NCBI GenBank assembly: GCA_944474755.1
Contig: OX104113.1
Location: forward strand, 23,316,432 to 23,380,431
From: Limnoperna fortunei
Taxonomy: Eukaryota > Mollusca > Bivalvia > Mytilida > Modiolidae
Length of the DNA stretch: 64,000 nt
Direction: 5' to 3'
Part shown: positions 8,420 to 44,400 of the stretch, one piece after another
Position numbering within the stretch: the first letter of the stretch is position 1
How the letters are laid out: every line of letters begins with the position of its first letter
Position numbers and translations under genes: made by a program
The notes under the pieces: generated by a model
What the model was told of the DNA's origin: nothing
What the model saw: the letters and a program-made list of their open reading frames with translations, nothing else
Database searches by the model: none

Positions 8420-8470
8420 TTACAAGTTGACGAACCAAGGCTTATATGTTCCTTCCTCTGGCTCTGGGAA
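8420..8470 (-). CDS. XDH: XDH last exon w29 with stop codon
   Basis: This 51-base exon encodes [16 protein letters not shown] and a TAA stop at 8420-8422. The KPW motif matches the conserved C terminus of the family (KPWSVRV in human). The acceptor is CTTTTCAG. Confidence 0.93.
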   Translation of the reverse strand, partial: FPEPEEGTYKPWFVNL

Positions 8471-11400
8471 CTGAAAAGACAAATATTACCATGAACAACC
8501 ATATTTGTGCTCCAATGGCAAAACAATAAAAAATGGGATTGTGTCTAAATCATTGGTTTTTCCCCTTAAATGTGAAACACTCGTACTATTTTAAGGGTCA
8601 ATTTAAAATAAAGTTTTGATGTGATGAAATCAAACAATTTACATAGATTAATTCTGATATTTTGCTAGTTTACCACCAAATCCTCCTGATTACAAAAAGA
8701 ATATGAAACCTATATGTCAATGGTTGTTTAAGGGTTACAGTGTGATCCTGTGATTGATCTGAAAACCAATAAAATAATTAAAAAAAACTAAAAGTTTTCA
8801 CAGTATATAACAACATTATTACATATTTCATTGGGTAACATATGTGGATAATATTGCATGTCCAACCAGAAAAAACTTTCAAACACAATCTGTAACTTCT
8901 TATGATATAATCATTTACATAACATCTAATCAAATGATTAAGGAATTACAGTACAAAGTTGCATAAAACAGATATTTTCAAGTGATTTTCTAATTCTAAG
9001 GACAACACAACTTCTGTAAAAGTCACTCAACCAGAATAAACCTAAAATTATACCTGACACTTCTCATGATATAACTATTTACTATATAGGTAATCACCTG
9101 ATTCAGGCACCAAACCAACTGTGCAAAACAGATATTTATATTTGATTTTCTATGTCCAAGGACCACAACATTAGCAAAAACAACTCAACAGTATCAAAAC
9201 ACAAACTCTACCTGTTCATAAGGTATGACTACTTACTAAATAACAAATCAATAGACTGAACCATTACATTTCAGTGATCAGACAAAGTAAACTTCAGCTT
9301 TGCCAATAGGGACTAATAGGCATAGTGTAGTTTTTATATCAATGGTGACAAGTTGTTAATGTAACACATATTTTATATCTTAACATCAAATAAGTTGCAT
9401 CGAGATTTTTATGCCCCCGCGATGACATGTCGGGGGGCATTAAGTTTTACTCATGTCCGTCCGTCTGTACGTCCGTACGAATTTCCGTCAAGCTTTTCTC
9501 AGAAACCGTACATCAGAACAATTTGAAATTTGGCAGGGTGGTTCAGTATCACAAGTTGTACGTCCTAAGCGACTTTCAGACCTGTCGGACAACTACTTCC
9601 TGTTTGGGACTGGGCCGATATGAAAATGTGTTAACATGAGTATGAAAATTTCCTTCAAGCTTTTCTCAGAAACCGTACATCAGAACAATTTGAAATTTGG
9701 CAGGGTGGTTCAGTATCACAAGTTGTACGTCCTAAGCCACTTTCAGACCTGTCGGACAACTACTTCCTGTTTGTGACTGGGCCGATATGAATATGTGTTA
9801 ACATGAGTATGAAAATTTCCGTCAAGCTTTTCTCAGAAACCGTACATGAGAACAATTTGAAATTTGGCAGGGTGGTTCAGTATCACAAGTTGTACGTCCT
9901 AAGCAACTTTCAGACCTGTCGGACAACTACTTCCTGTTTGCGATTGGGCCGATATGAAAATGTGTTAACGTGAGTATGAAAATTTCTGTCAAGCTTTTCT
10001 CAGAAACCGTACATCAGAACAATTTGAAATTTGGCATTGTGGTTCAGTATCACAAGTTGTACGTCCTAAGCGACTTTCAGACCTGTCGGACAACTACTTC
10101 CTGTTGCGACTGGGCCGATATGAAAATGTGTTAACACGAGTATGAAAATTTCCGTCAAGCTTTTCTCAGAAACCGTACAAAAGAACAATTTGAAATTTGG
10201 CAGGGTGGTTCAGTATCACTTGTTGTACGTCCTAAGCGACTTTCAGACCTGTCGGACAACTACTTCCTGTTTGCGACTGGGCCGATATGTAAATGTGTTA
10301 AAATGAGTATGAAAATTTCCGTCAAGCTTTTCTCAGAAACCGTACACAAGAACAATTTGAAATTTGGCAGGGTAGTTCAGTATCACAAGTTGTACGTCCT
10401 AAGCGACTTTCAGACCTGTCGGACAACTACTTCCTGTTTTCGACTGGGCCGATTTGAAAATGTGTCAACACGAGTATGAAAATTTCCATCAAGCTTTACT
10501 CAGAAACCGTACATTAGAACAATTTGAAATTTGGCAGGGTGGTTAAGTATCACAAGTTGTACGTCCTAAGCGACTTTCAGACCTGTCGGACAACTACTTC
10601 CTGTTTGGGACTTCCTTTAGCGGGGGCATCCGTGTCCCATGGACACATTCTTCAATTTTTTTAAAATGGGTTAATAATCTGTTATGATTTCTGATCCCTC
10701 TGTTTTGTTTTTTAAGGTTTTAGGTGGAATTTATAAAAAATATACAGAATTATATTCTACTAGTAATACTATCAACCTGTTCGGTAAACTGGTCTTTACA
10801 AGCCATGCGGATCCTCTCCGGAGTGGCTGGACTGTTAAGTGTAAAATTGATATCTTGTTTGTTGTCGATTCTAGCAGATTTGATAGCATCTTTTACAGCA
10901 AAAAATACTGCAGCTGATAAAAACAATGGAGGTTCACCAATAGCCTAAATAAAAAAATTAAAAAATAATGTCTTGGGTACTCTAAATTGTATCACTTTTA
11001 AGTACAGGTAAATGACAGTGATGAATCAAGGCATGTGAGCTCCATACTAGATTTTTAATGTTTTTCAGTTTTGTACGACAAGTATATCATGTTTTGTTTT
11101 GTCACCCTGACTATCTAATGATGAGCTTTGGTCTACAGCTTGCCCTATTTATTTCTCCTGAAACAGCTACTAGTTTCCTATAGAAAGAGAATATTCATAT
11201 AGAAGAAATGAAATCTAAGGTCATTATTTATTCTCCTATTTGATGTCAAAATCGCTATTTACACTGAATACATACAAATATATACATATATCTAGATTCT
11301 ATGATGGATGATAAATTATAATACAGTACAGATCTGTTTTTTGTTTGTTTGTTTGAATGATGTTTAACACCATTTTCAGCAATTTTTCCGCTTTATCATG

Positions 11401-14400
11401 GCGTCCAATTTTTATTGGGGGAGGAAGCCGGAGTACCCGGAGAAAACCCCCGACATGTGGTATGAAAACTGGCAATCTTTGTCAATTAAGATTGGAGTGG
11501 AATACACCCTGTCTGCAGTGAGAATCGAACCAGCAATCTCAGTGTTGACAGACCACGTGATCAATAGTAGACGAACTACCTTAACCACTCTGCCACAGAG
11601 GCCCCCAGTCTAGATCTGAAAATGAACTATTTTTTTGCACCATACATTCATTTATCAACAAATGAATGATAACTGTCAACAAATCAAAAATAACATAACA
11701 ATTTATACTGGAAAATGTTGGTGTATAGGATACACAACAAACCTAAAAATAAATACTAACCAAAACCTTAGTCCTACAATTATTATAAATATGTAAAAAA
11801 AATATACAAATAAACAAATTTAGCTAATGTCAGGCTTATCTGAATGTTAAAGTCTGCAGTTCAAGGACAAAGCCTTCGAACAGGATAAGACAATTCTTAC
11901 CTTAGAAGAATACACAGCTCTCTGATTGATGCTGCCTTTCAGTAAGGATACATTGAATTCCACTGGTATATCTCCGAAGCCTGGTATTTTATAATTCCCT
12001 GGTCCCCTGGTGAACAGAAATCCATCTGGTGAAATCTTCTGTTGTTCCAACAGCATCATACCATAACCCTGTAGTACAGGTGAAGTACATTTATAACCAT
12101 ATAGGCAATGTGTACATCATATTACAAGTTTGTTCTTCAATGAGCTTATTAAAAATCACAAATGAATATACAGTTATAGGACAAAAAGTGCAGTTTTGGA
12201 AAAAAATTACTGATTTTATGATGCCTTGATTATTTTTTCTATAATATTTTGAGGTTATCTTTATTTTGCATTACTGGTAGTTACTAAGTACAAATCTAGG
12301 TAAATGTAGTGTGTCATCAATTGACAGTTATACCAAATTTTTTTTCCAAAAATGTGTGCATTCTTTCTGTGGAGTTTTAGTGATCTGGGTTGAAAATTGT
12401 AAGAGGATTGATTAGACTTAACAGGTACCCTATATCCCCCACCACACATGTAAGAGGATTGATTAGACTTAACAGGTACCCTATATCCCCCACCACACAT
12501 GTAAGAGGATTGATTAGACTTAACAGGTACCCTATATCCCCCACCACACATGTAAGAGGATTGATTAGACTTAACAGGTACCCTATATCCCCCACCACAC
12601 ATGTAAGAGGATTGATTAGACTTAACAGGTACCCTATATCCCCCACCACACATGTAAGAGGATTGATTAGACTTAACAGGTACCCTATATCCCCCACCAC
12701 ACATGTAAGAGGATTGATTAGACTTAACAGGTACCCTATATCCCCCACCACACATGTAAGAGGATTGATTAGACTTAACAGGTACCCTGTATCCCCCACC
12801 ACACATGTAAGAGGATTGATTAGACTTAACAGGTACCCTGTATCCCCCACCACACATGTAAGAGGATTGATTAGACTTAACAGGTACCCTGTATCCCCCA
12901 CCACACATGTAAGAGGATTGATTAGACTTAACAGGTACCCTGTATCCCCCACCACACATGTAAGAGGATTGATTAGATTTAACAGGTACCCTATATCCCC
13001 CACCACACATGTAGGAGGATTGATTAGACTTAACAGGTACCCTATATCCCCCACCACACATGTAAGAGGATTGATTAGACTTAACAGGTACCCTATATCC
13101 CCCACCACACATGTAAGAGGATTGATTAGACTTAACAGGTACCCTATATCCCCCACCACACATGTAAGAGGATTGATTAGACTTAACAGGTACCCTATAT
13201 CCCCCACCACACATGTAAGAGGATTGATTAGACTTAACAGGTACCCTATATCCCCCACCACACATGTAAGAGGATTGATTAGACTTAACAGGTACCCTAT
13301 ATCCCCCACAACACATGTAAGATGATTGATTAGACTTAACAGGTACCCTATATCCCCCACCACACATGTAAGAGGATTGATTAGACTTAACAGGTACCCT
13401 ATATCCCCCACCACACATGTAAGAGGATTGATTAGACTTAACAGGTACCCTATATCCCCCACCACACATGTAAGAGGATTGATTAGACTTAACAGGTACC
13501 CTATATCCCCCACCACACATGTCCTTCCTAACTATGCTATTTGGGTTTGCAACCTGGCCAAAAATGTGTTATAGTCAAAATACAATGACCTGTCAGGTAC
13601 TTTCTACCTATTGCTCAATCAATTCCAAAAATAGATAACAGCTGTTTAGAAAACTGCTTCAATCTGTTTTCTTTAAAGCTCTTAACCAGAAAGAGCTGGA
13701 CATTTAAATTGCAGCTATTCATGGAAGACTCAGTTAACTTCAAATTTCTAATCTGGGAGACAGCCATAGAGTACAATGTAGATGGAACACCTTAGAAGTT
13801 TAAGTTACCCGAGTCATGCAATAGTAGCTGCAATTTAAATGTCCAGCTCTTTTGTATTAAGAGCTTTAAAGAAAACAGATTGAAGCAGTTTTCTAAACAG
13901 CTGTTATCTGTATTAAGAATTGGTTGACCAATAGGTAAAAAATACCTGACAGGTCATTGTATTTTGACTATAAAATAGTTAACAATAACTACTTTTACCT
14001 GCATAAATCCACCTTCAATTTGTCCAATGTCAATGGTTGGATTCAGACTACATCCAACATCCATTACTATATCTGTTCTTAACACCTATTAATAAATGTT
14101 GTAGAAAGATTTCAATAAAACTAATATTTAAAAAATAGCACATCAAAATGTAGTTGAAAACCATTGAAAACTCCCAAAACAAACACAGAAAAATTTATTG
14201 GTATGAAAAACTATTTAGATATATCTATAGGCTATTTCTTCATAAACTATTTAGATATATCTATAGGCTATTTCTTCATAAACTATTTAGATATATCTAT
14301 AGGACATTTCTTCATAAACTATTTAGATATATCTATAGGCTATTTCTTCATAAACTATTTAGATATATCTATAGGCTATTTCTTTATAAACTTTCCATGT

Positions 14401-20400: not shown

Positions 20401-23400
20401 GCTTCCATAACAACGTTCTTGTTTCTGGCGTTTAGATTGGATGACGCAGCATGAACAGATGTGTGCGCGTGAGCTAATCTGTACTGGGTTATCTGTACCA
20501 GAAATCGACCATTTACGGAAGAATAATGTAACAATGCTGCAAATATTGTTTAACAGTTAATTTTTTCTGCATATTTGTTCACTGAATAAAGCTACTTTTG
20601 AAAAGATTAATTAAATTACTCTGTGTACCAACATTCTCTATGTCAAAATAAGTTATAATTTCCCATTGTCTGGTGTTAACTAAGAACTGCTTCAGTGGCC
20701 ATTTTGAATTTTTTGTCAGAAAAAAACTTTGTTAGGGACCTTAAATAACTAAATGAATATTTCTGATAAGTTAAGTTTCAATTAGTTTACTGGTTTCAGA
20801 AAAGAAGTCATTTTTCCGGTAGTTTTCTATGTTAAATTAAGTATTGCACTGGTAGCCATTTTGAATTTTCATTAGAAACAAAAAATATAAACTTTGGAAA
20901 GGACCATTCAATGAGCCCTGTGATCAAGTTTGATTTCAGAAAAGTTCTTATCATTGGATAGGGTTAGGTGAACTAAAAACAAAACAAAAAAAAAAGAATC
21001 AAAAAGAAAATTCATTTACATTTATGTTTTTTTCTTGTTATTAAAAATTAGTAAGAAATAATTTTTCACAACCCACATTACCAAACAGGTCACATGGCCT
21101 CTCAAGTTATTTACACCATACCTGATTAAGGAATGTGGCTGTATAAGATATCCCAAACTTAGTAGGAATCACACAGATACCCCTCTTCTTCCATCTGTTT
21201 TCACTATAATTAAATATTTGTTAGTTATTTTATGAAACACAATATCTACTAATAACTGACAAGCATGAATTGTCTGTTACAAATATGTCATTTATCTTTA
21301 CTATGAATCCAATATGTAAGATGATTTTGTGAAATGCTAGATAAGTTTTGTCTTTTTTTTTTAAAGAAAACCTTTCAGGCCAAATATCAAATGACAGTAT
21401 TCAGTGTCTTGAAAGTAAAATATGACTGCATTATTCAGGGTAAAAAACCCATTTATATAAACCTCTAAAGACTTAGTTTCAGTCTTTCTGATTTATTTGT
21501 TTGTCTGTACACAGTTTTATGCCATGTTCATCAATTTCTAGATGCCTGTCGAAGACAGGTCATATTATGGGTACACCCATGGCAGACGGGCGGCATCCAC
21601 AGTGATGTCCGCTCTAACTCAAACAGTTGTCCGATAACCAGCCAAATCATTTCAGCCACTTATGAGTTATGGTCCTTTATTTATACCAAAAATGCTAAAT
21701 TCATCGTGTCCGTTGTTGTTCGATCTTCATGAAACTTGAGGAAAATGTATAGGCGCATAATATCTGGTCCAAGATTGATTACCAGTCAAATTGGTTCATA
21801 AAGAAAATGCAAATTCGCCTTGTCTGCTTTCTCTCAAACAGTTGTTGTACAATCTTCATGAAAATGTTTATGGGCATAAAATGTCAGCCAAATTTGATAA
21901 CCAGCCAAATTGCATCAACCACTTCAGAGTTATGGCCCTTTATTTATTAAAAAAAGTGGCAAATTTGCCTTGTCAGCTCTCTATCTCAAACATTTGTTGC
22001 CTGATCTTCATGAAACTTGGGGAAGATGTTTATGGGCATATTATCTTGACCAAGTTTAATCATCAGCCAAATTGCTTCAGGCACTTCAGATTTATGGCAC
22101 TTTATAAAAAAATGGCAAATTCGTGCATATCACCTTGTCCACTCTAAATCATACAGTTATTGTCCAATCTTCATGAAACTTGGAAAAATGTTTATGGGCA
22201 TAATATCATGACCAAATTTGATAACCAGCTAAATCACCCTACACACTTCAGAGTTATGGCTCTTAATTTAAAAAAAAATGCCAAATTGGACTCTTCTATT
22301 AGTGAAATAGTTGTTCGTTGATCTTCATGAATGTTTGCAGAAATGTTGGGTGTCTAAGGAATTAAATTGGCTGGTTATCAAGTTTATTATGGTAATAAGG
22401 GTTCCCATGATTTAAACGCCCCGTAACTTAGTATTAAATTTTAATGTGGTTGGTTATCGAATCCATTATAGTATTACATGGTTCCTGTGATATAATTGAC
22501 ACCTCTGCATATACCACATATTTGTTTGGTATTAAATTGGCTGGTTACCAAATTCATTTGGGTTATAAGGATTCCTGCAACTTAATACATGTACACACCT
22601 CTCTGTCAAACTTTTCAAACATTTACCAAAATTTTTGATGGGCATATTTTGTGGCACTTTGGCACTTGTTTAACTTTTTCTTTTTTTCTTTTTTTAGTTT
22701 TTATTTGGTTAGGAAACTGCAGTGCCTGGTGAGAACCTTGATGACTGCAAACTTCTGAGAATTCATTTATTAAATGTATCAGTATTAAATTATTATATCA
22801 GCAGACTGAGTTAAATTGTTAATGTACCAAGATGCTTTATTTTGTTCACAAACATTTACGAATATGGATTTCATGAAAGAGATGTGTTGATTGCAGATAA
22901 TAATACCTCCAAGACAAACAAAGATAGTACTTTAAATGAGATGCAATCAGAAAGTCATTCCTATTTTCAGTTTTAAGACAAATCTGTAAGCAAAATAAAA
23001 AACCAAACTCATTGTTAATAATGGACACCTTTTCAACAGGTATGGAGATGAAGGAGTTGTGGATGTGAGACGATACCTTTACACTTTCCTTTGTTTAAGT
23101 TAAAAATAACTTTTCCAATAACGAATGGAAAAATGAACAGAAAATTGAACAGACTGAATGTCCTCTCACATTCCTTGGCAGGACATAAAAATTACATACT
23201 GAGGAACACTAGTCAAGTTTCAAGAAATTCTGTAGGTCTCAAAAAGAATATGAAAATGAGAAAAATTTAAGGAGAAAAGACTATGGACACCAAGGGATGG
23301 CTATAGCTCATGTGTACTATTAATCCAGGTGAGCTAAAAATAAATAAACACCATTTATGAAAGGAGGCTGACAGGTAAATTATTCTACAAAATATGGAGC

Positions 23401-26400
23401 ATCTACCAAATTATATATTACTTTCTCATACTAATATTACCTGTTAAATATTTCCACCTCTCGTTTTCTCCTGATGAATTCACTCCTGGACATGCATTCC
23501 TCCCAACATTTCCTGATATTACAATTTTCTAATGGCTGGCCAAAATGGGTTAAATCTCCTTCTCTGTACATGTTTAAATTGCGAACCTTTAAGATTTTTA
23601 ATGGAATATTGTAGATTATTCAATAGATTGATAGACTGATAGATTGATTGATTGATTGATTGACTGATTTACATCCACATAGTTTGAAAAACACAATTAA
23701 GAACTATTTGAAAAAGGATAATCCATCAAAAAACAAAGGGCAAAATTTTACAAAACCAAAATAAATAAGATAGGGTTAATTGTTCAAGAACAATTAGAAA
23801 GGTCTTTCCCAGATACCTTTATGAAATTAAGTTTTCTTCATCTCTTGTTGTGAACTTGACTACATAAGTTACTGAACCATTTTTTAGGCGCAATAGACTA
23901 TTTCTGTGGTCCTGAGTAAAAAAATACATGGTTGTCAAGGACTTTCGTGGCCGTTGCTAAGGACAAAATGCCACTTCCGGTTGTAAAATGACATATTTCA
24001 GTAAAGTACATCATCCTGATTTAAAAAATATATGGTTGCTAAGGACTTTTTGTAATGGTGACCTGGTTGCTATGGTATGACCTTGACCTGTGACCTTTTA
24101 ATTTGGGCTCAAATTGAAAGCCTTTACTTGATGATCATGTTCAACCTATATGTTTACTATATTATCTGTAATGGTTTTCAAGTTGTATGCCAAAAACTGA
24201 TTAACCGAAATGAGTCAAGGGCCCGAACTCGAAAATGGTTCATCGCACAGTTTCGGACCAAATGTATCAAATGAAGGCCTTGATGAGAGGAGTATTTTTC
24301 CCATTTATTGTCTTCTTCTATCTTTTATAGTTTTCGAGTTGTAATGATAACAAATTGGAGGCCTAAGGTCGAGGTCACTTCTGAACTTTGACTTTGAGAT
24401 TTTCTTTAAGGACATGTCACAGGACAATAAATGGTGAAGACCTTTTGTGATTTCGACTTACGGTTTGTGAGTTTTTGTGATAAGCGGAGTCCTTGAAACA
24501 TTCAGGTATACCGCTTGCCTTCGCTAGTCAAAAATTTTTAGCCAAAATATGTCATAAAGTTGTCCCAAAAGTTCCTTAACATTTGTCACTTTTTAGTTTT
24601 CTTGTATCTGTTATAGTTCCAGAGATTACGCGATAACAAGGTTTTCGGTGTTTGGGCAGATAACTCCGTAAAGAAAAATGTTTCGATTTCACAGGGTGAA
24701 TTCCGAATAGACTTTCAGTGTCCAAAACTTGTCGCGAAAGACCAAAAAGATATGTCGCTTAGTTTTTAAACTGTTTGGGTTTGAAAGTTGGCGGAAAAAA
24801 AAAAAAAAGAAAAAAGATAGGGCTAATTGTTCAAGAACAATTAGAAAGGTCTTTCCCAGATACCTTTATAAAATTAATTTTTCTTCATCTCTTGTTGTAA
24901 ACTTGACTACCTAAGTTACTGAACCATTTTTTAGGCGGAATAGACTATTTCTGTGGTCCTGAGTAAAAAAATACATGGTTGTCAAGGACTTTCGTGGCCG
25001 TTGCTAAGGACAAAATGCCACTTCCGGTTGTAAAATGACATATTTCAGTAAAGTACATCATCCTGATTTAAAAAATATATGGTTGCTAAGGACTTTTTGT
25101 AATGGTGACCAGGTTGCTATGGTATGACCTTGACCTGTGACCTTTGAATTTGGGCTCAAATTGAAGGCCTTCACTTGATGATCATGTTAAACCTATATGT
25201 TTACTATATTATCTGTAACCGTTTTCAAGTTGTATGCCAAAAACTGATTAACCGAAATGAGCCAAGAGAACGAACTCGAAAACGGTTCATCGCACAGTTT
25301 TGGACCAAATGTATCAAATGAAGGCCTTGATGAGAGGAGTATTTTTCACATTTATTGTCTTTTTCTATCTTTTATAGTTTTTGAGTTGTAATGATAACAA
25401 GATTGGAGGCCTAAGGTCGAGGTCACTTCTGAACTTTGACTTTAAGATTTTCTTTAAGGACATGTCACAGGACGATAAATGGTGAAGACCTTTTGTGATT
25501 TCGACTTACGGTTTGTGAGTTTTTGTGATAAGCGGAGTCCTTAAAACATTCAAGGTATACCGCTCGCCTTCGCTAGTCAGAAATTTTTCGCCAAAATATG
25601 TCATAAAGTTGTCTCAAAAGGTCCTCAACATTTGTCACCTTTCATTTTTCTTGTATCAGTTATGGTTCCAGAGATTACGCGATAACAAGGTTTTCGGTGT
25701 TTGGGCAGATAACTCTGTAAAGAAAAATGTTTCAACTTCACAGGGTGAATTCCGAATAGACTTTCAGTGACCAAAACTTGTCGCGAAAGACCAAAATGAT
25801 ATGTCGCGTAGTTTTTAAACTGTTTGGTTTTGAAAGTTGGCGGAAAAAAAAAAAATAAAAAAAAATAATAATAATCCGAACAAAAACAATAAGGTCTTCC
25901 CACTGGAAGTGGGAAAGACCTTAATAATCCGAACAAAAACAATAAGGTCTTCCCACTGGAAGTGGGAAAGACCTTATTAATGTAAGTACATTGTAATACA
26001 ATATAATTTAATACAGACATATGATCAATGCTTTTGGCAAGTTAACAAGTTTGACTGTGTTCTGTTTCTTAAATGTACCTCTACCTCGGCTCCTACACTG
26101 CAAAAGGGGATAATACACCATTTATTTTAATATCTGATTTATAACAGCTGTTGTACTCATAATGCTGAAGCACCTAAAATCATTTCCACTGTCATTTATA
26201 CATAAAAATCATTCTATGCTGGATCAAGGTTTTATAGGAAGATGAAAGGAAGACACAGATAAAGGAAGCAGGAAACTAGCATCTCTAATATTACCTTACT
26301 AGGACAAACTCCTAGATATGTTGCTATTTCATCAACGAATGTTTCTGCAACAAACATGCCCTGAGGTCCGCCAAATCCACGGAATGCTGTGTTGGAGGAT

Positions 26401-29400
26401 ATATTCGTTTTACATACCCGTCCTGTGACCTTTAAATTTGGTATCTTATAAGCATTCTCAATGTGGTACATTCCTCTATCTAATACCTTATTTACAAAAT
26501 AAAGGTTATGATTGTAACTTTTCTACAACAAATATGCTTTTAGTAACTTTTAAACAACCCTTTAAGACAATTGGGAACCTGAAAACTAATGAAAAAAGAG
26601 CTAAATATAAATCACAGCATACCAGATGTTACATGCTTGCACCGACTTTAAATAAATATTACTTGACTTGACTTGACAGATCTCTGTACCATCTAAACCT
26701 GAAATGCAAGATTTACCAAACTGATTTCTTGCAATTCTTCATGAATAAAACTAAAATTAAATCTTTACTGGCTCCCAATTTTGTAAAATGTCATGACATA
26801 CGAAAAATGAGAGAGCCATTAAAGTTCTTAATTTTAATCAGACTGAACCTCAACCCAATTAGAACATTTAGCATTTGGTTTTATAGAAGATGACAACAAA
26901 GAAGCTTGTTAATGACAGCAAAGTTAAAAGCTACTATGACCAAGAGTTAGTTTTAAAATATATTAATACATGTTTACAAGGAAATAAGCAATGTGAGAAT
27001 AAGCAATAAATATGTGCCAATGTTGTGTCCACGGGGTGATGGTCAGGCAGGGTCTGTTGATTTTGTTAGTAAAAGCATAGTTGGTGAATATAATTATACT
27101 TTAGCAATGCATGGTCAAGCTTGTAAATATTTTACCTGACTTGGCCAAAGATGAAGGGCAGTTGCAATTGCATCAATAAAAGTTTCTGTAACAAGCATGC
27201 CCTGTGGTCCACCAAACCCTCGGAATGCTGTGTTTGATGGGATATTGGTCTTCACTGTCCTTCCACTAACTTTAAAGTTTGGTATTTTGTAGGCATTGTC
27301 ACAGTAGAATAAACCATACTCTAACACCTTCATTTACAAACAAGATTATATACTTCACAGAAGGTACAAGCACTGCATGTCCATGTTACCACCCAAGTTA
27401 GTGTGTGAGGCCTTAAGAATTTTTATTGACAGATTTAGATAGAACTAGATATCAGCAAGATGGTATCCATCTCTGTGGGCCCCACCGACCTTGGGGTCAA
27501 GGTCAAATGTCATCAACCATGGTATGTGACACATTGCCTTGATATTATCTGCCCAAATACCAAACATCAAAAGCCTACCTCAAAAGATAAAAAAGTTTTA
27601 TATCAGACACAGTTAGTTGGATGGACGGATGGACAGACTGATGACACTATACGGCATCCGCCACAAAGTGGGGCCCTTATTTTGACTTTGAATAAATGAA
27701 TTCAAAGGAATCCAGATGGAAAACAATGCTAGTAATTTTTATGGATTAATGAATCAATTTGATATTGATATTATAAAAAAAAAATCATACGATGTATGGC
27801 ACTCAGTAAAAATGTATCCATTCAGGTCATCAAGGGGGCATCAGTGGCTGAGCAGTTAAGGGTTAAGGTAGTTGTCATCTACTACTGATCATCTAGTCTA
27901 TCAACACTGAGGTTGCAGGTTCCAGTCTCACTGTGGGCAGGGTGTGCTCGACTCCAATCTGAGTAGTTTTCCTACCTTAGGTATGGGGTTTTCTCAGGGT
28001 ACTCTGGTTTCCTCCTCCACTAAAAACCATGATATCACTAAAATATTACTTTAAGTGGCTTAAAACATTATTCAAACAAACAGGTAGTCAAAAGGTTACA
28101 ACCTGCATACTGCATATTTCAGTTAATCTCCACAATATTGTTTAATGTAATTAAAGCATTTTACCGTTAAACTATTGAGGTTAAAATGTTAGATATTCCA
28201 TGAAATGAAAGTTGAATTTGGAAGGTTTTTCCTCTGTTCAAACATTAAGTTATAATGTTACATACATCATAAATGACATTAAAACACAGGGATTACAGTA
28301 AATTTTTGCTATTTAGAGTTTTTCTTTTTTCCAAAGCTGTGTGTTTTATTTGGTGTGTTTAATTTTGGTGTTTTGTCCAACTGATGGGTTAAATTTTGGC
28401 ACCTTTGATGACAGTGAAAGACAAAAATCACAAAGTTGCTCTCTATAAATTACAGTTGTAAAGCAAGGTTATTATACCTATTTATATATACAATATATTT
28501 GTATATAACTTGCGGTTGCGCTGTGTATCCATTTTGGGATCCAGCCATGTTACCACATTGTTAATTAGAATATATAATTACCATACATATACAAAACAAA
28601 TTTTCATGATTCTAATATCCCTCATACGCTTTGAGAACACATTAGGGTTCTAATAAGCATAGAGTCAGGTGAGACGTCAAATTAGAATTCCGATGTCATA
28701 TATGCTGAAATAAAAATTTCAAACTGGAACAATTCAATTTTGTTCAGATTTTTCTCAATATTTTTTGCCTTCAAAGGTATGAATATTCAATGAGTGACGA
28801 GCATATATTTTTCTACTAATTTTATTTGCTTAAAGCATACTGTTTTGGTGTATATCTTATTAGTTTGAAAAACCAATATTACCATTGATAAGCATCCTCT
28901 TAGAGTCACTTACAAATTTTAAAACATTGTTAGACATATTAGAATCAAAATAGATTATTGCAAGTGGGCTCTATGCCAATTAGAACATGGTCAGACCTTA
29001 TATTTGTCAATATTTTATACCGAACGATAGCGAGGTATAAAATGAAGACAAATATAAGGTCTATGCTAATTAGAACATGGTCAGACCTTATATTTGTCAA
29101 TATTTTATACCGAGCGATAGCTAGGTATAAAATGAAGACAAATATAAGGTCTGACCATGTTCTAATTGGCATAGAGCCCACTTGCAATAATATATTTCTT
29201 AATTCTCCTTTGGTCAGTAAATATTGATCAAAGATTTAAATTTTAATCCTTTTTGTCTTCCAGCAGTACATCTTGATTGAATTATGATAAGTGTTATTTT
29301 TATGATAAATAACAGCATCTAATCAGTAAATGATAAGCTGGACATAATTATGTGTGAATAGAAATTCATACACTGTGTTTTCTTAACAATTTTACAATAA

Positions 29401-32400: not shown

Positions 32401-35400
32401 CAGACTCATCCCAGACGAGTAAAAAATATGTATTGTAAGAATTGTTGTTTTTTAATCAAAAGCAAATGTAAAAACTTACAGCACCAGACAGATCTAAGGT
32501 ACACCCAGCATTGTTGTATAGCTTTATGTCTGCTGCCATGATCTTTCCTTCCTTTGTAAATCCAACCTACAATAGTGTTACTGTTAATGACTTCACTCAA
32601 TAACATTTATTTTGGTATATAAAGAAAAGTACAAAGAAACATTCCGACTTCTAACCTCATTGGCATATTAAAACAAATAGAGCACATCTGATTATTTATA
32701 TGTTCTATGTCTTATTACTCAATTTTAAATGCCAGGAGTTTAGTTATGATCAGTCAGTAATTATCAAGTATTGGTAAATATGAAGATCAATACGTATGCT
32801 TAAGGGGTATACCTTGTATTGTCCAAGGAATGGATGTCTGGTCCCAGTTATTAACATGTCTTCATCTCTATCTAACATACATCGTACAGGTTTACCTAGT
32901 CTTTTGATAGAAAACACAATTATTATTAATTTATTTGTACATACTGACACAACAGCTATAAAAGTTCACACTGTTATTGAAAACATACGAGAGACCCTGC
33001 ACACCTGTATATGTTGTAGCCCTAAACAGACAAGCCAAGCAAATCAAGATGGACAGATAAGGGTAAATTAATATGCACCCTCCCAACATTACGTCACAGG
33101 GCATTATTAAGCTGCAGCTTTGATACAGATTCTTTCAGAACTTTAACAGATGTGTTTGTCTTACAGTTGTAAATAGAATAGTATTCTGTTTTTGTTGATG
33201 CTTCTGTAAAAATAATCTTTCTATTTATCTAACTGGGAGAAGGGAGAAAATTGGTTAAAATATAAACCTAATAATAGTTTGTTACCATCAAATATGATCT
33301 CTTTAACTTCATACAATATTAAATAAATCTATCTTTATGAAAAATTATTGGAATCTGAGTTTATTTCATTTAGCTAAATTTGTAAACGAAAATCAAGACA
33401 AATGCAAACTGATTTGTGCATCTTTTACAAGCAGGCAAAAGTCTGTATGCTTTTTTCAAGTGAACAATGACAATTACAATTAATAAATAGGTAAGAACTT
33501 GTCCCAAATTTCTTTCCCAACTTACTTGAAAGCTGCTAAAGCTACTGGTGTCGAGACCAAAATAGACCTTGTTTCTTTACCTCCAAATCCACCACCTGAT
33601 GCAAAAGAAATATATTCACTGCCAATATAGCTTTTAAATTTGATACTTATAAAAAAAAATATTGGTGTAGTAATTGTTGACATCTTTTTTATGGCATCAA
33701 TACACTTTGCCTGTATTGTGTACACCTCAAATACATATACAACTTATTTAGTCAATTCAATTTTATTTTAATGGCAGGAATTAAGGATTTTCAATTTGCT
33801 GTAGAGGTGCCCAATACACATAGCACCATATTTTCAAAACGTTTGACGTGACAAGAAAAGATTTTTTAAAAACTTTTCTAAATTGATTTCAAACACTTTA
33901 ATCCTATGTTGGTATGTAACATAATTATGAGCAAAAATGCAATTATAAAAAAATGTGTTATTATTTCTGCTATTGTTACACTTTCTATATAACATAAATA
34001 CAATTACTAAACCTTTTAAGAAAAGATTTTTAAGGCAACAATTGACTGGCAGCATACAAATACTTTATTATTTTCTTACCAAGTCTCTTGACATTGACTG
34101 GCAGCATACAAATACTTTATTATTTTCTTACCAAGTCTCTTGACATTGACTGGCAGCATACAAATACTTTATTATTTTCTTACCAAGTCTCTTGGCATTG
34201 ACTGGCAGCATACAAATACTTTATTATTTTCTTACCAAGTCTCTTGACATTGACTGGCAGCATACAAATACTTTATTATTTTCTTACCAAGTCTCTTGAC
34301 ATTGACTGGCAGCATACAAATACTTTATTATTTTCTTACCAAGTCTCTTGGCATTGACTGGCAGCATACAAATACTTTATTATTTTCTTACCAAGTCTCT
34401 TGACATTGACTGGCAGCATACAAATACTTTATTATTTTCTTACCAAGTCTCTTGACATTGACTGGCAGCATACAAGTACTTTATTATTTTCTTACCAAGT
34501 CTCTTGACATTGACTGGCAGCATACAAATACTTTATTATTTTCTTATCAAGTCTCTTGACATTGACTGGCAGCATACAAATACTTTATTATTTTCTTACC
34601 AAGTCTCTTGACATTGACTGGCAGCATACAAATACTTTATTATTCTCTTACCAAGTCTCTTGACATTGACTGGCAGCATAAAAATACTTTATTATTTTCT
34701 TACCAAGTCTCTTGACATTGACTGGCAGCATACAAATACTTTATTATTATCTTACCAAGTCTCTTGACTCTAACAAGAATTTTGTTGGCTGCAACTCCAA
34801 GTGTTTCTGCTGTTACCAACTGTATAAATAGTAAACATACATGTTCGTGTTTCACATTATTATGAATAATGATATTTCTAAGAATGTACTCTTTATTCTG
34901 CATGCTACCGCAGGTCGGGGGTTCTCTCCGGGTACTCCGGCTTCCTCCCCCAATAAAAACTGGACGCCATGAAATAGCTGAAAAATTGATGAAAGTGGCG
35001 TTAAAACACCATTCAAACAAAAAAAAAATATTCTGCATGCTGTTTATTTTTGTTAATGTTGTTCTGTTTTTTTACATTTAAGAGATGTCTTCAACACTAT
35101 ACTAACATATTCTGGCTTTAGTGTATGTAGCAGTAGTGAATTATTTCATCATGTAACTGACAGAAACCTTTTAAAGTTATGGAGTGGAAACAATGTTTTC
35201 ATGGGTAATAACTGTGGCTAAGTTGAACTAATCTTTAATCGTTTCACTCAAAGGGGTTTAATGTTAGCGAATGGAAGTGATTTTGGTTAGATGGATAAGA
35301 AGGTAACTATAAGGTTTCCACTGATGGTTCGATTAATTTGGTTAAATGAAGAAATTCAAGAGTAATTTGATAACATGTTTTTTTCCCATTATGATGATAC

Positions 35401-38400
35401 ATTAATTTTATCACCTCAAAGCTCTGTGTATTGTGTTAAATGCATGGTACCTGTGTCTCAGTCGGATTTTGTGTTGATACAAACAATTCCATCTCTCCAT
35501 CTTCATTCTTAGGTACAGCTAATGATGCCTGTGTCTCAAGATAAAAGTGCTCCTGACCTCCTATATGGACTTCTCCTTCAATCACATGGTCAGCCTGTTC
35601 AAATCCTTTTTCTATATCACCAGTAAAAATAGTTTTTTCTGGTCCAAAGTACGACTCTTTTGCAATGGCTTCCTGAAATTAAAATGAATACTCTATCATT
35701 GAGCACCAACCATAAATTTATCAACTGCTTATTGTTCATGTTTTAGACATACCGTAAATGCTCGAGAAAAAGTGCATCCACATATAAGTCAGGGGTCTTT
35801 TCAGGACTTAAAATCTGGTATTTTGCCACTGACCCTTATATAAGTTTATCAGAAGACAACTGTGTTGACATCAGGTCAAAATCAAATAAACATTCCAAAT
35901 TTGCGAAGAAAAAGCATTATATCAGTAAGACTTCTTGTTTATTATTTATTTCTTGTGTTGAATGAGTTAAATATCGCTTGTCATTTATCATAAGTTGTTT
36001 GTTTACACTAGTTTACACATTTTTGAAAATGAAAACATCCCGTAATTATCTCCATGAATTTGGCATAACTAACAACCGTAAAAAAATAAATAAACCCAAG
36101 CAGTTTTTAAAATAAATGCATGCTAAATTGAAGATTATAAAGAAATATGGTTTGTAAATTAAAATAATAATTGATGAATAAAAAAATTCGGAACTGTATA
36201 AAATAAACAATACACAAGTAAACAAGTGTGGACACAGAAAAACGTCTCGCCTGCATTCCGCATCAGTAACGACAATAAATTTCGTCATAAGAATTACGTA
36301 AATAGCATTAAATATCAGCAGCGGCCTGTATACCAAATATTGTCACCATACCATGCATAGTTACAGAGCAACTGTCCTAATACAAAAACTTTAACGTAGT
36401 CACTGGACCATGAAATTGAGGTCAAGGTCAGGTGACACCTACCAGACAGTCATGTAATATTCATCAGCAACCTATATACCAAATATTGTCATCCTACCAT
36501 GCGTGGTTACAGAGGAACTGCCGTAACCCAAAAACTTTAACGTAGTCGCTGGACCGTGAAATTGAGGTCAAGGTCAGGTGGCACCTACCAGACAGTCATG
36601 TACTTTTCATCAGCAACCTATATACCAAATATTGTCATCCTACCATGCATAGTTACAGAGAAACTGCCGTAACCCAAAAACTTTTACGTAGTCACTGGAC
36701 CGTGAAATTGAGGTCAAGGTCAGGTGACACCTACCAGACAGTCATGTACTAGTCATCAGCAACCTATATATCAAATATTGTCATCCTACCATGCATGGTA
36801 ACAGAGAAACTGCAGTAACCCAAAAACTTTAACATAGTCACTGGACCGTGAAAATGAGGTCAAGGTCAGGTGGCACCTACCAGACAGTCATGTACTATTC
36901 ATCAGCAACCTATATACCAAATATTGTCATCCTACCATGCATAGTTACAGAGAAACAGCAGTAACCCAAAAACTTTAACGTAGTCTCTGGACCGTGAAAT
37001 TGAGGTCAAGGTCAGGTGACACCTACCAGACAGTCATGTACTAGTCATCAGCAACCTATATACCAAATATTGTTGCGTGGTTACAGAGGAACTGTCGTAA
37101 CCCAAAAACTTTAACGTAGTCACTGGACCGTGAAATTGAGGTCAAGGTCAGGTGACAACTACCAGACAGTCATGTACTAGTCATCAGCAACCTATACACC
37201 AAATATTGTCATCCTACCATGCGTAGTTACAGAGGAACTGTCGTAACCCAAAAACTTTAACGTAGTCGCTGGACCGTGAAATTGAGGTCAAGGTCAGGTG
37301 ACAGGTGACTGACTGGCAAGTACTCATCATAAGCTAACTCTGGACCAAATTTGATGGATCTAGGGCTTGGGCTTACAAATATATGAAGCAAGATGTCAAG
37401 TGTTTACGCCGCCGCCGCCGGATTCCCGTACATATGTCTCGCCTCCAGCGACTTTCATTGCAGGCGAGACAAAAATCTTTATTAATGGCTTAAATATGCT
37501 TTATTTACATGTAGCATTATTAAACATGTATCTGTCTATTTTCGCATTACAATTGTATTAACTTAGAATGTCTTTTAACACACAAATATGGATTTTTAGT
37601 TCTTAATATTAAACTTAAGACACATAATATATGCAACAAAAGGTTGAATGACAGCTAAATAAATTTATTAGTCAGTGTACCAAGAAGAATATTTAAAGTG
37701 ATTGTCTACCTTGATTGTTACAATAGTTTCCATTGGTTCGTATTCTATATGAACGGCTTTAGCTGCTGCCTGTGCGTGTGCCTGGGTATCAGCTACTATG
37801 GCTCCAATAATCTGACCAATACAAAGTACCTAGAATGAAAAAGAAATTATGCAGTTCAAATTTGTTCAAATTACTGAAGTAGTAACAGAGGTTAGGTAAC
37901 ATATAGACAACTTCCTGAAGTTAATACCAAGAAATATAAATGATTTATACAAATTAATTTAAACGTAGATGTACCCTTTAGGTCAATTTTTTTTAATGTA
38001 ATGGAAGGGAAGATGGCTGTTCCAAAACAAACCACAAATCAAGACACAAGTGTGGACACAGAAAAACGTCTCACCTGCATTCCGCATCAGTAACGAAAAT
38101 AAATTTCGTCATAAGCATTACGTAAATAGCATTAAATATCCAGCGGCCTGTATAAAAAATATTGTCACCATACCCTGCATAGTTACAGGGGAACAGCCGT
38201 AACCCAAAAACTTAAAGGTAGTCGCTGGACCGTGAAATTGAGGTCAAGGTCAGGTGACACCTACCAGACAGTCATGTACTATTCATCAGCAACCTATATA
38301 CCAAATATTGTCATCCTACCATGCGTAGTTACAGAGGAACTATCGTAACCCAAAAACTTTAACGTAGTCGCTGGACCGTGAAATTGAGGTCAAGGTCAGG

Positions 38401-41400
38401 TGACACCTACCAGACAGTCATGTACTAGTCATCAGCAACCTATACACCAAATAATGTCATCCTACCATGTGTAGTTGCAGAGGAACTGTCGTAACCCAAA
38501 AACTTTAACGTAGTCGCTGGACCGTGAAAGTGAGGTCAAGGTCAGGTGACACCTACCAGACAGTCATGTACTAGTCATTAGCAACCTATACACCAAATAT
38601 TGTCATCCTACCATGTGTAGTTACAGAGGAACTGTCGTAACCCAAAAACTTTAACGTAGTCGCTGGACCGTGAAATTGAGGTCAAGGTCAGGTGACACCT
38701 ACCAGACAGTCATGTACTAGTCATCAGCAACCTATACACCAAATATTGTCATCCTACCATGCGTAGTTACAGAGGAACTGTCGTAACCCAAAAACTTTAA
38801 CGTAGTCGCTGGACCGTGAAATTGAGGTCAAGGTCAGGTGACACCTACCAGACAGTCATGTACCAGTCATCAGCAACCTATACACCAAATATTGTCATCC
38901 TACCATGCGTAGTTACAGAGGAACTGTCGTAACCCAAAAACTTTAACGTAGTCGCTGGACCGTGAAATTGAGGTCAAGGTCAGGTGACAGGTGACTGACT
39001 GGCAAGTACTCATCATAAGCTACCTCTGGACCAAATTTGATGGACCTAGGGCTTGGGCTTACAAAGATATGAAGCAAGATGTCAAGTGTTAACGCCGCCG
39101 CCGCCGCCGGATTCCCATACATATGTCTCGCCTCCAGCGACTTTCGTCGCAGGCGAGACAAAAACTAATATTTTTGCTGTTATCTAATGTGTTTAAGACA
39201 ACAGGCAAGATTATGTCCCAAAATTATAAATATCTTTTCAGCCTACAAAAGACTTATAATCCTAACAATATAAATCTAAATATAGAAAGTACAAAAGAGA
39301 ACCTCTGTTGAAGCAAAAGATTCTTCTGGTAGCATTCCCCATGTATTATGTCCTGGAACATCTTTATGCGAGATGAAATCTACAACTCCTTTCATCTTTA
39401 ATGCCTCAGTTGGGTCAACCTTCAGAAGTCTAGCATGTGGTTTTGTACTTGTCACTAAAGCCAGATATAATTCCCCTAAAAAAAAGAGACGTGTATTTCA
39501 GAATGAAGAAACAAACACATAGTGGTAGGGTCACACTTCCCATGCTTCAAACCATGAAAAGTTATTGTATATCAAATAGGCTCACACTCCCCATGCTTCA
39601 GACCATGAAAAGTTATTGTATATCATATAGGCTCACACTCCCCATGCTTCAGACCATGAAAAGTTATTGTATATCATATAGGCTCACACTCCCCATGCTT
39701 CAGACCATGAAAAGTTACTGTATATCATATAGGCTCACACTCCCCATGCTTCAGACCATGAAAAGTTATTGTATATCATATAGGCTCACACTCCCCATGC
39801 TTCAGACCATGAAAAGTTACTGTATATCATATAGGCTCACACTCCCCATGCTTCAGACCATGAAAAGTTATTGTATATCATATAGGCTCACACTCCCCAT
39901 GCTTCAAACCATGAAAAGTTATTGTATATCAAATAGGCCCACACTCCCCATGCTTCAGACCATGAAAAGTTATTGTATATCATATAGGCTCACACTCCCC
40001 ATGCTTCAGACCATGAAAAGTTACTGTATATCATATAGGCTCACACTCCCCATGCTTCAGACCATGAAAAGTTAATGTATATCAAATAGGCTCACACTCC
40101 CCATGCTTCAAACCATGAAAAGTTATTGTATATCAAATAGGCTCACACTCCCCATGCTTCAAACCATGAAAAGTTATTGTATATCATATAGGCTCACACT
40201 CCCCATGCTTCAGACCATGAAAAGTTACTGTATATCAAATAGGCTCACACTCCCCATGCTTCAGACCATGAAAAGTTAATGTATATCAAATAGGCTCACA
40301 CTCCCCATGCTTCAAACCATGAAAAGTTATTGTATATCAAATAGGCTCACACTCCCCATGCTTCAAACCATGAAAAGTTATTGTATATCATATAGGCTCA
40401 CACTCCCCATGCTTCAGACCATGAAAAGTTATTGTATATCATATAGGCTCACACTCCCCATGCTTCAGACCATGAAAAGTTAATGTATATCATATAGGCT
40501 CACACTCCCCATGCTTCAGACCATGAAAAGTTATTGTATATCATATATGCTCACACTCCCCATGCTTCAGACCATGAAAAGTTAATGTATATCATATATG
40601 CTCACACTCCCCATGCTTCAGACCATGAAAAGTTAATGTATATCATATAGGCTCACACTTCCCATGCTTCAGACCATGAAAAGTTATTGTATATCATATA
40701 TGCTCACACTCCCCATGCTTCAGACCATGAAAAGTTATTGTATATCATATATGCTCACACTCCCCATGCTTCAGACCATGAAAAGTTAATGTATATCATA
40801 TAGGCTCACACTTCCCATGCTTCAGACCATGAAAAGTTAATGTATATCAAATAGGCTCACACTCCCCATGCTTCAGACCATGAAAAGTTATTGTATATCA
40901 TATATGCTCACACTCCCCATGCTTCAGACCATGAAAAGTTAATGTATATCAAATAGGCTCACACTCCCCATGCTTCAGACCATGAAAAGTTACTGTATAT
41001 CATATAGGCTCACACTCCCCATGCTTCAGACCATGAAAAGTTAATGTATATCAAATAGGCTCACACTCCCCATGCTTCAAACCATGAAAAGTTATTGTAT
41101 ATCAAATAGGCTCACACTCCCCATGCTTCAAACCATGAAAAGTTATTGTATATCATATAGGCTCACACTCCCCATGCTTCAGACCATGAAAAGTTACTGT
41201 ATATCAAATAGGCTCACACTCCCCATGCTTCAGACCATGAAAAGTTAATGTATATCAAATAGGCTCACACTCCCCATGCTTCAGACCATGAAAAGTTATT
41301 GTATATCATATAGGCTCACACTCCCCATGCTTCAAACCATGAAAAGTTATTGTATATCATATAGGCTCACACTCCCCATGCTTCAGACCATGAAAAGTTA

Positions 41401-44400
41401 TTGTATATCATATAGGCTCACACTCCCCATGCTTCAGACCATGAAAAGTTAATGTATATCATATAGGCTCACACTCCCCATGCTTCAGACCATGAAAAGT
41501 TATTGTATATCATATATGCTCACACTCCCCATGCTTCAGACCATGAAAAGTTAATGTATATCATATATGCTCACACTCCCCATGCTTCAGACCATGAAAA
41601 GTTAATGTATATCATATAGGCTCACACTTCCCATGCTTCAGACCATGAAAAGTTATTGTATATCATATATGCTCACACTCCCCATGCTTCAGACCATGAA
41701 AAGTTATTGTATATCATATATGCTCACACTCCCCATGCTTCAGACCATGAAAAGTTAATGTATATCATATAGGCTCACACTCCCCATGCTTCAGACCATG
41801 AAAAGTTAATGTATATCATATAGGCTCACACTCCCCATGCTTCAGACCATGAAAAGTTATTGTATATCATATATGCTCACACTCCCCATGCTTCAGACCA
41901 TGAAAAGTTAATGTATATCATATATGCTCACACTCCCCATGCTTCAGACCATGAAAAGTTAATGTATATCAAATAGGCTCACACTCCCCATGCTTCAGAC
42001 CATGAAAAGTTATTGTATATCATATAGGCTCACACTCCCCATGCTTCAGACCATGAAAAGTTAATGTATATCATATAGGCTCACACTCCCCATGCTTCAG
42101 ACCATGAAAAGTTATTGTATATCATATATGCTCACACTCCCCATGCTTCAGACCATGAAAAGTTAATGTATATCATATAGGCTCACACTCCCCATGCTTC
42201 AGACCATGAAAAGTTATTGTATATCATATAGGCTCACACTCCCCATGCTTCAGACCATGAAAAGTTAATGTATATCATATAGGCTCACACTCCCCATGCT
42301 TCAGACCATGAAAAGTTATTGTATATCATATATGCTCACACTCCCCATGCTTCAGACCATGAAAAGTTAATGTATATCATATATGCTCACACTCCCCATG
42401 CTTCAGACCATGAAAAGTTAATGTATATCATATAGGCTCACACTTCCCATGCTTCAGACCATGAAAAGTTATTGTATATCATATATGCTCACACTCCCCA
42501 TGCTTCAGACCATGAAAAGTTATTGTATATCATATAGGCTCACACTCCCCATGCTTCAGACCATGAAAAGTTAATGTATATCATATAGGCTCACACTCCC
42601 CATGCTTCAGACCATGAAAAGTTAATGTATATCATATAGGCTCACACTCCCCATGCTTCAGACCATGAAAAGTTATTGTATATCATATATGCTCACACTC
42701 CCCATGCTTCAGACCATGAAAAGTTAATGTATATCATATATGCTCACACTCCCCATGCTTCAGACCATGAAAAGTTATTGTATATCATATATGCTCACAC
42801 TCCCCATGCTTCAGACCATGAAAAGTTAATGTATATCAAATAGGCTCACACTCCCCATGCTTCAAACCATGAAAAGTTATTGTATATCAAATAGGCTCAC
42901 ACTCCCCATGCTTCAAACCATGAAAAGTTATTGTATATCATATAGGCTCACACTCCCCATGCTTCAGACCATGAAAAGTTACTGTATATCAAATAGGCTC
43001 ACACTCCCCATGCTTCAGACCATGAAAAGTTAATGTATATCAAATAGGCTCACACTCCCCATGCTTCAAACCATGAAAAGTTATTGTATATCAAATAGGC
43101 TCACACTCCCCATGCTTCAAACCATGAAAAGTTAATGTATATCATATAGGCTCACACTCCCCATGCTTCAGACCATGAAAAGTTATTGTATATCATATAT
43201 GCTCACACTCCCCATGCTTCAGACCATGAAAAGTTATTGTATATCATATATGCTCACACTCCCCATGCTTCAGACCATGAAAAGTTAATGTATATCATAT
43301 AGGCTCACACTCCCCATGCTTCAGACCATGAAAAGTTATTGTATATCATATAGGCTCACACTCCCCATGCTTCAGACCATGAAAAGTTATTGTATATCAT
43401 ATAGGCTCACACTCCCCATGCTTCAGACCATGAAAAGTTAATGTATATCAAATAGGCTCACACTCCCCATGCTTCAAACCATGAAAAGTTATTGTATATC
43501 AAATAGGCTCACACTCCCCATGCTTCAGACCATGAAAAGTTAATGTATATCATATATGCTCACACTCCCCATGCTTCAGACCATGAAAAGTTATTGTATA
43601 TCATATATGCTCACACTCCCCATGCTTCAGACCATGAAAAGTTAATGTATATCATATATGCTCACACTCCCCATGCTTCAGACCATGAAAAGTTAATGTA
43701 TATCATATATGCTCACACTCCCCATGCTTCAGACCATGAAAAGTTATTGTATATCATATATGCTCACACTCCCCATGCTTCAGACCATGAAAAGTTACTG
43801 TATATCATATAGGCTCACACTCCCCATGCTTCAGACCATGAAAAGTTACTGTATATCAAATAGGCTCACACTCCCCATGCTTCAGACCATGAAAAGTTAA
43901 TGTATATCAAATAGGCTCACACTCCCCATGCTTCAAACCATGAAAAGTTATTGTATATCAAATAGGCTCACACTCCCCATGCTTCAAACCATGAAAAGTT
44001 ATTGTATATCATATAGGCTCACACTCCCCATGCTTCAGACCATGAAAAGTTACTGTATATCAAATAGGCTCACACTCCCCATGCTTCAGACCATGAAAAG
44101 TTAATGTATATCAAATAGGCTCACACTCCCCATGCTTCAAACCATGAAAAGTTACTGTATATCAAATAGGCTCACACTCTCCATGCTTCAGACCATGAAA
44201 AGTTATTGTATATCATATAGGCTCACACTCCCCATGCTTCAGACCATGAAAAGTTACTGTATATCAAATAGGCTCACACTCCCCATGCTTCAGACCATGA
44301 AAAGTTAATGTATATCAAATAGGCTCACACTCCCCATGCTTCAAACCATGAAAAGTTATTGTATATCAAATAGGCTCACACTCCCCATGCTTCAGACCAT

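Follow-up and report, generated by a model that had tools for sequence, protein, structure and literature searches.

The stretch of DNA analysed here, hereafter the window, is 64,000 nucleotides (nt) long and comes from the mussel Limnoperna fortunei (contig OX104113.1, positions 23,316,432 to 23,380,431). Its minus strand carries a gene for xanthine dehydrogenase (XDH) in which one 192-bp exon of the molybdenum domain is present in two tandem copies, a and b. Exon choice would switch this single gene between a xanthine dehydrogenase and a non-xanthine enzyme resembling aldehyde oxidase (AOX), a reading to which we give a probability of about two in three. The copies would be used one at a time. 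Inclusion of copy b would give an ordinary xanthine dehydrogenase. Inclusion of copy a would give a protein with the same iron-sulphur, flavin (FAD) and molybdenum domains and a substrate pocket without Arg880 and His884. Such an enzyme would bind xanthine weakly and may work as an AOX-like oxidase of aldehydes or N-heterocycles. As judged by alignment, the substrate-specificity residue Arg880 lies in the duplicated exon and is replaced in copy a. Both points are new here; the original prediction, which described the exon pair, had missed them.

The exon pair and its pocket residues

The features on which the argument rests are the following.

27136..27327, minus strand: exon copy a (alternative), 64 residues corresponding to XDH positions 877-940, with Tyr880, Tyr884 and Phe914
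26295..26486, minus strand: exon copy b (canonical XDH type), with Arg880, His884 and Phe914
26487..27135, minus strand: intron of 649 nt between exon copies a and b
32480..32566, minus strand: exon w17, phase 0 junction with either copy
23441..23586, minus strand: exon w19, phase 0 junction with either copy
33526..33595, minus strand: shared exon with GGGFGGKE, giving Glu802 (XDH type) in both isoforms

The description of two paired minus-strand exons, both 192 bp long, phase 0-0 and flanked by GT-AG sites, each with the cofactor motif and with 43 of 64 residues in common, holds at these coordinates. So does the statement that w17 and w19 join either copy in frame, which was checked on the spliced frames. 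Both copies have an open frame, with the boundaries ATGAAG/GTG...CAG/GTAAAA for copy a and AATAAG/GTA...AAG/GTAATA for copy b, and 135 of their 192 nt are identical. Mutually exclusive pairs are recognized as adjacent internal exons of similar length that are homologous, share a frame and have usable splice sites (PMC5740500). Copies a and b show all of these properties (both 192 bp, separated by 649 nt, 43/64 residues identical). Their splice sites score within the span of those of the other exons: the acceptors of a and b are the 14th and 10th weakest of 32 in the XDH gene, the donors the 24th and 18th weakest of 28. A search of the flanking introns at E values up to 100 revealed no third copy of the exon.

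Both copies match solved XDH chains from residue 877 on (best E value 3.3e-19 for a, 2.9e-22 for b), and a 258-residue stretch of the copy-a isoform aligns without gaps to residues 791-1048. In this alignment, block residue 1 is bovine XDH residue 877, and block residues 4, 8 and 38 correspond to Arg880, His884 and Phe914. The gene encodes the full XDH domain set, with exons for CGEGGCGAC, QCGFCTPG and GNLCRCTGYRP, the FAD domain and the molybdenum domain in one chain. Both isoforms further resemble XDH (xanthine oxidoreductase, XOR) in Glu802 and Phe914. With copy b, Arg880 and His884 are also present, whereas copy a has tyrosine at both positions. The alternative block found in Mytilus (see below) has Gln, Met and Phe at positions 880, 884 and 914.

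Conservation of these residues was read from 317 homologues, comprising the top-listed ones only and picked by likeness to the queries; 24 of them do not have the block pattern and 7 have no readable residue 802. In this sample, 227 of 233 homologues of the Glu802 type retain Arg880, against 0 of 37 of the Val802 type, where K, F, M, W or Y is found. The six Glu802 homologues without Arg880 are the Mytilus galloprovincialis record P0121, two amphioxus proteins (Branchiostoma P0158 and P0178, both Gln), and one each from Priapulus (P0245, Lys), Lingula (P0284, Ala) and Patella (P0293, Lys).

The arginine has been studied in other enzymes. Mutants of nidulans at this residue cannot accept xanthine (PMC5746545). 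Mouse AOX3 has Y885 in place of XOR R880, and K889 in place of the XOR histidine (PMC3864932). At the first of these positions, copy a also has a tyrosine. The mouse R883M enzyme shows reduced oxidation of hypoxanthine, increased oxidation of phthalazine and a dominant-negative effect in vitro (PMC5593953). The R310M change of R. capsulatus XDH lowered purine activity and raised kcat from 33 to 211 per min with benzaldehyde and from 0.39 to 10.9 per min with retinaldehyde (PMC2671166). In view of these effects, the copy-a isoform would be expected to be poor on xanthine.

Comparison of the whole block points the same way. The AOX/XDH log-odds of the block is -63.9 for copy b and -23.9 for copy a, and -22.6 and -15.7 for the Mytilus alternatives. 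Across 230 XDH-type homologues the mean is -61.7 and the highest value -28.7, so that copy a and the Mytilus alternatives lie above the XDH range. Copy b, the blocks of the two neighbouring XDH genes g1 and g2, and that of the M. californianus record P0001 span -64 to -49, within the XDH range. We also scored a 258-residue piece against NCBIfam models, exchanging the block alone. With copy b, the XDH model scored better than the aldehyde oxidase model (320.1 vs 314.5). With copy a, the order was reversed (aldehyde oxidase 312.5, XDH 309.3), and with the Mytilus alternative block in the window flanks the better model was also aldehyde oxidase. The copy-a isoform has Arg880 replaced (Tyr880) and Glu802 retained (GGGFGGKE). 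Because Glu802 is retained, we do not file it as an AOX, but as an enzyme possibly working like one.

Relatives of the two exon copies

A search of the genome (1.34 Gb in 285 contigs) with copy a matched seven places: the two copies themselves, a single site in each of four further genes, and a marginal one (E 4.8). The four other genes are of XDH/AOX type and have a single block apiece. Two of them, g1 and g2, are of the XDH type (Glu802, Arg880) and share the contig of the window gene, all three within ~0.2 Mb; g4 and g5 are AOX-type, with Gly at 802, and lie on a different contig. The g2 block shares 54 of 64 residues with b and 47 with a, the g1 block 47 with b and 39 with a. Since both are closer to b, copy b is the ordinary copy and copy a the diverged one. 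The g1 block has a Trp at block position 23, and the g2 block has FGSPQ in place of FGGPQ.

Copies a and b are nearly saturated for synonymous substitutions (NG86 dS 1.34). A codon model of a, b, g1 and g2, run with our own script on 64 codons and hence on modest data, gave an omega of 0.14-0.15 on the copy a branch and 0.09-0.10 elsewhere. Setting omega to 1 on the copy a branch cost 8.95, 9.08 and 7.26 log units on three topologies. Copy a is under purifying selection, and a neutral pseudo-exon is therefore rejected. The two 300-nt upstream flanks show no resemblance beyond chance (115 of 200 mononucleotide shuffles aligned equally well). The downstream flanks share one similar stretch of 27 columns (2 of 200 shuffles), in one of ten comparisons.

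By whole-protein comparison, the window gene is most similar to the XDHs of Mytilus californianus (84%) and M. galloprovincialis (82%). In 705 shared columns lying outside the block, it agrees with the Mytilus protein at 588 positions, compared with 548 for g2 and 534 for g1. Two Mytilus XDH records, P0001 (M. californianus, isoform X1) and P0121 (M. galloprovincialis, isoform X2), are both 1327 residues long. The names "isoform X1" and "isoform X2" are assigned by NCBI automatic annotation. The two records differ at 27 of 64 positions inside exactly this block and at 47 of 1263 outside it, where the most different 64-residue window holds 7 differences. The P0001 block is b-like (VLDRG.YH) and the P0121 block has VLEQALLMFENCYK. 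We scanned pairs with a likeness of 75% or more outside the block, among 271 sequences including the two window isoforms, for a deficit of likeness within it. The P0001/P0121 pair has the largest deficit of 1618 homologue pairs (0.385; mean -0.015, sd 0.058) and the window's own a/b pair the second largest. In a prediction from M. edulis (P0227), a block of the P0121 type directly follows w17, which is the place of copy a. From this position, a single ancestral exon is likely to underlie both copy a and the alternative block of Mytilus.

The Mytilus records, the motif spacing given below and the purifying selection on copy a support the proposal that one copy or the other is used. That the spliceosome of Limnoperna fortunei picks one copy per transcript, with a changed activity as the result, is what we infer from sequence. 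A wider reading is that one mussel gene makes an XDH and a non-xanthine enzyme through two ancient, selected exon copies, that this is common to Mytilus, where the alternative has Gln880 and Met884, and that the XDH/AOX division is here made by splicing. We advance it tentatively, at somewhat less than even odds.

Weighing the explanations

Several observations count against a switch to an AOX-like enzyme by exon choice. The frame from w17 to w19 is kept with a, with b, with both or with neither, so that frame alone does not enforce exclusion. The block log-odds of copy a lies under those of all 45 AOX-type homologues (at least +10.1). The change of best NCBIfam model comes from a drop in XDH score, the AOX score being slightly under that of copy b. 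On both grounds, copy a is marked by the loss of XDH features, not by a gain of AOX ones. The copy-a isoform also keeps Glu802 and does not have the Lys884 of many AOXs (Lys889 in AOX3; PMC3864932). In R. capsulatus R310M, no phthalazine oxidation could be detected and the kcat/Km with retinaldehyde hardly rose, from 0.063 to 0.071 (PMC2671166). As to Mytilus, P0001 and P0121 belong to different species, and paralogy between them is conceivable; P0227 runs into unrelated sequence past the block, being a poor gene model. Finally, a block tree (22 sequences, 64 columns) asked whether one ancestral exon or two parallel duplications gave rise to copy a and its Mytilus counterpart. None of five constrained trees was rejected (approximately unbiased test, p 0.27-0.63, with an IQ-TREE warning that replicates were too few), and orthology of the two is neither supported nor rejected by it.

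An aldehyde- or heterocycle-oxidizing role for the copy-a isoform is our best guess, by analogy with the enzymes cited above. Its main rival keeps mutually exclusive exons and makes the copy-a isoform a poor or inactive, dominant-negative partner that would tune XDH within the homodimer. Mouse AOX1 V806E, which has Glu at the 802 position in an AOX-type pocket, is weaker. However, the omega of copy a, its intact FRGFGGPQG and Phe914, and the shift of the block log-odds towards AOX in both mussel lineages suggest that a catalytic pocket is maintained, although a structural role would likewise lead to conservation. We regard an inactive subunit as unlikely, albeit the most serious of the rivals.

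Decay is a much weaker candidate. Copy a could be a decaying or rarely used duplicate devoid of function, as might be suggested by its two changed pocket residues and by its divergence, the greatest among the four sequences in the codon comparison. Its frame has nonetheless stayed open and its splice sites mid-range to good despite saturated synonymous change, omega = 1 is rejected on all three topologies, and the exons are 70% alike while their 300-nt upstream flanks are essentially unalignable. We give this explanation little credit.

Slightly less credible still is a tandem cassette, in which both exons are included and the protein is longer by 64 residues. The combination a+b is in frame. 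The original prediction argued that XDH needs one block and has a fixed domain length. Of the 238 homologues that have both GGxFGGK[E/V] and GQGxHTK, 198 show a spacing of 244 residues between the two motifs, as do both single-block window isoforms. In the remaining homologues the spacing is 164-249, with one at 1509, and none is at 308 (+64). The block motif occurs once in 290 of 317 homologues, is absent by the pattern used in 24, and occurs twice in 3, which are 1767-2321 residues long. Both single-block Mytilus records have 1327 residues. On the motif spacing, we reject tandem inclusion as the main form.

An assembly artefact or a collapse of two XDH genes, named in the original prediction as what would overturn it, might be suspected from the three XDH genes lying within ~0.2 Mb and is rejected as very improbable, since one exon alone is doubled (tblastn with the whole Mytilus XDH matched the block twice and every other detected exon once, 33526..33595 having fallen under the threshold and been located separately), neither a nor b equals the g1 or g2 block, and the same block is singled out by the X1- and X2-type records of Mytilus.

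Host gene, introns and known systems

The window gene lies on the minus strand. Its first exons are up to ~11 kb past the right end of the window and its last is at ~8.4 kb. From 47604 to 10944, the exons form a single continuous frame with GT-AG sites. Genes g1 and g2 are on the plus strand (contig region 23185001-23305000), and the window gene is tail-to-tail with g2. The other exons and intron features referred to are listed here.

21122..21203, minus strand: shared exon with position 1009, Tyr here and Phe in the aligned solved rat and bovine chains
10777..10944, minus strand: shared exon with GEPPLF, the catalytic Glu site
8423..8473, minus strand: last coding exon, matching Mytilus XDH residues 1311-1327
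27065..27093, strand not assigned: inverted-repeat arm immediately downstream of exon a, with 79% complementarity to 26519-26547 (pair I8; lead only)
26519..26547, strand not assigned: inverted-repeat arm just upstream of exon b (pair I8; lead only)

We take the Glu of GEPPLF to be the catalytic Glu1261. At position 1009, Tyr is also found in P0121 and Phe in P0001. A more distant molybdenum hydroxylase gene of the genome was seen through matches to PF20256, the family of the second molybdenum-binding domain, on the plus strand (G000:C10:51049676-51055668). By tblastn, it shows no FRGFG block and just a 33-residue piece (E 0.008).

Of the 23 introns listed, 22 were tested for complementarity between their two ends, and the a-b intron is the most extreme (z -3.4; 0 of 200 shuffles). 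Because another XDH intron reaches z -2.7, this pairing is kept as a lead only. It could affect the donor of a and the acceptor of b jointly. An Rfam scan of the region gave no match at gathering score, and phage records searched with the region gave no match.

Repeats and open reading frames lie in other XDH introns. On the minus strand, 51878-56481 holds overlapping long open reading frames with reverse transcriptase and RNase H, and a weak match to the phage-integrase family (tyrosine recombinase) below the Pfam cut-off; it is presumably a DIRS-like retroelement. A 51-bp tandem repeat at 39526-45286 has ~113 copies that are 96% matching. Further arrays have units of 146 bp (36325-37303 and 38157-38989) and 48 bp (46607-47289). 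The intron after exon b contains a ~1-kb segment in two copies (23752-25852), 94-98% alike in the pieces listed. At 12261-13568, two open reading frames overlap, one of 435 residues (minus) with no Pfam family and one of 313 residues (plus) with a nuclease-like domain match just under the cut-off.

Mutually exclusive tandem exons are an already known kind of arrangement, and COQ-2 6a/6e and CYP4F3 are known substrate-switching cases (PMC7434440). In COQ-2 of C. elegans and parasitic helminths, mutually exclusive internal exons, 6a and 6e, alter the enzyme core and substrate choice, much as proposed here. Exon 6e is called specific to helminths, annelids and molluscs, and splice events that swap the catalytic core and substrate of an enzyme are called rare by the authors (PMC7434440). 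COQ-2 differs in enzyme and fold, and the switch was demonstrated there by exon deletion and RNA, here by sequence alone. CYP4F3A/B, named in the same paper, also changes the substrate specificity of an oxidizing enzyme through alternative exons, but is a cytochrome P450, tissue-specific in mammals and unrelated to molybdenum hydroxylases. Human tandem duplicated exon substitutions such as that of KHK likewise swap homologous exons one for one (PMC9741552). However, both KHK isoforms retain the catalytic arginine, whereas the mussel XDH would exchange a substrate-binding arginine. Among the papers listed in searches of the open-licence PMC literature, in part the top of a longer list, we found no description of an XDH with mutually exclusive exons, which is not proof of absence.

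XDH and AOX are regarded as separate genes that arose by duplication. AOXs are normally encoded by genes of their own, and this genome also has its two AOX-type genes with Gly802. If the proposed switch is real, a splicing decision would shift the product of one mussel gene between purine breakdown, with its urate and superoxide output, and the oxidation of aldehydes or xenobiotics. The natural pocket variants (Tyr/Tyr and Gln/Met), set in an otherwise fixed XDH frame, would make XDH versus AOX specificity directly testable. The exon pair also matters for how mussel XDH is annotated and assayed.

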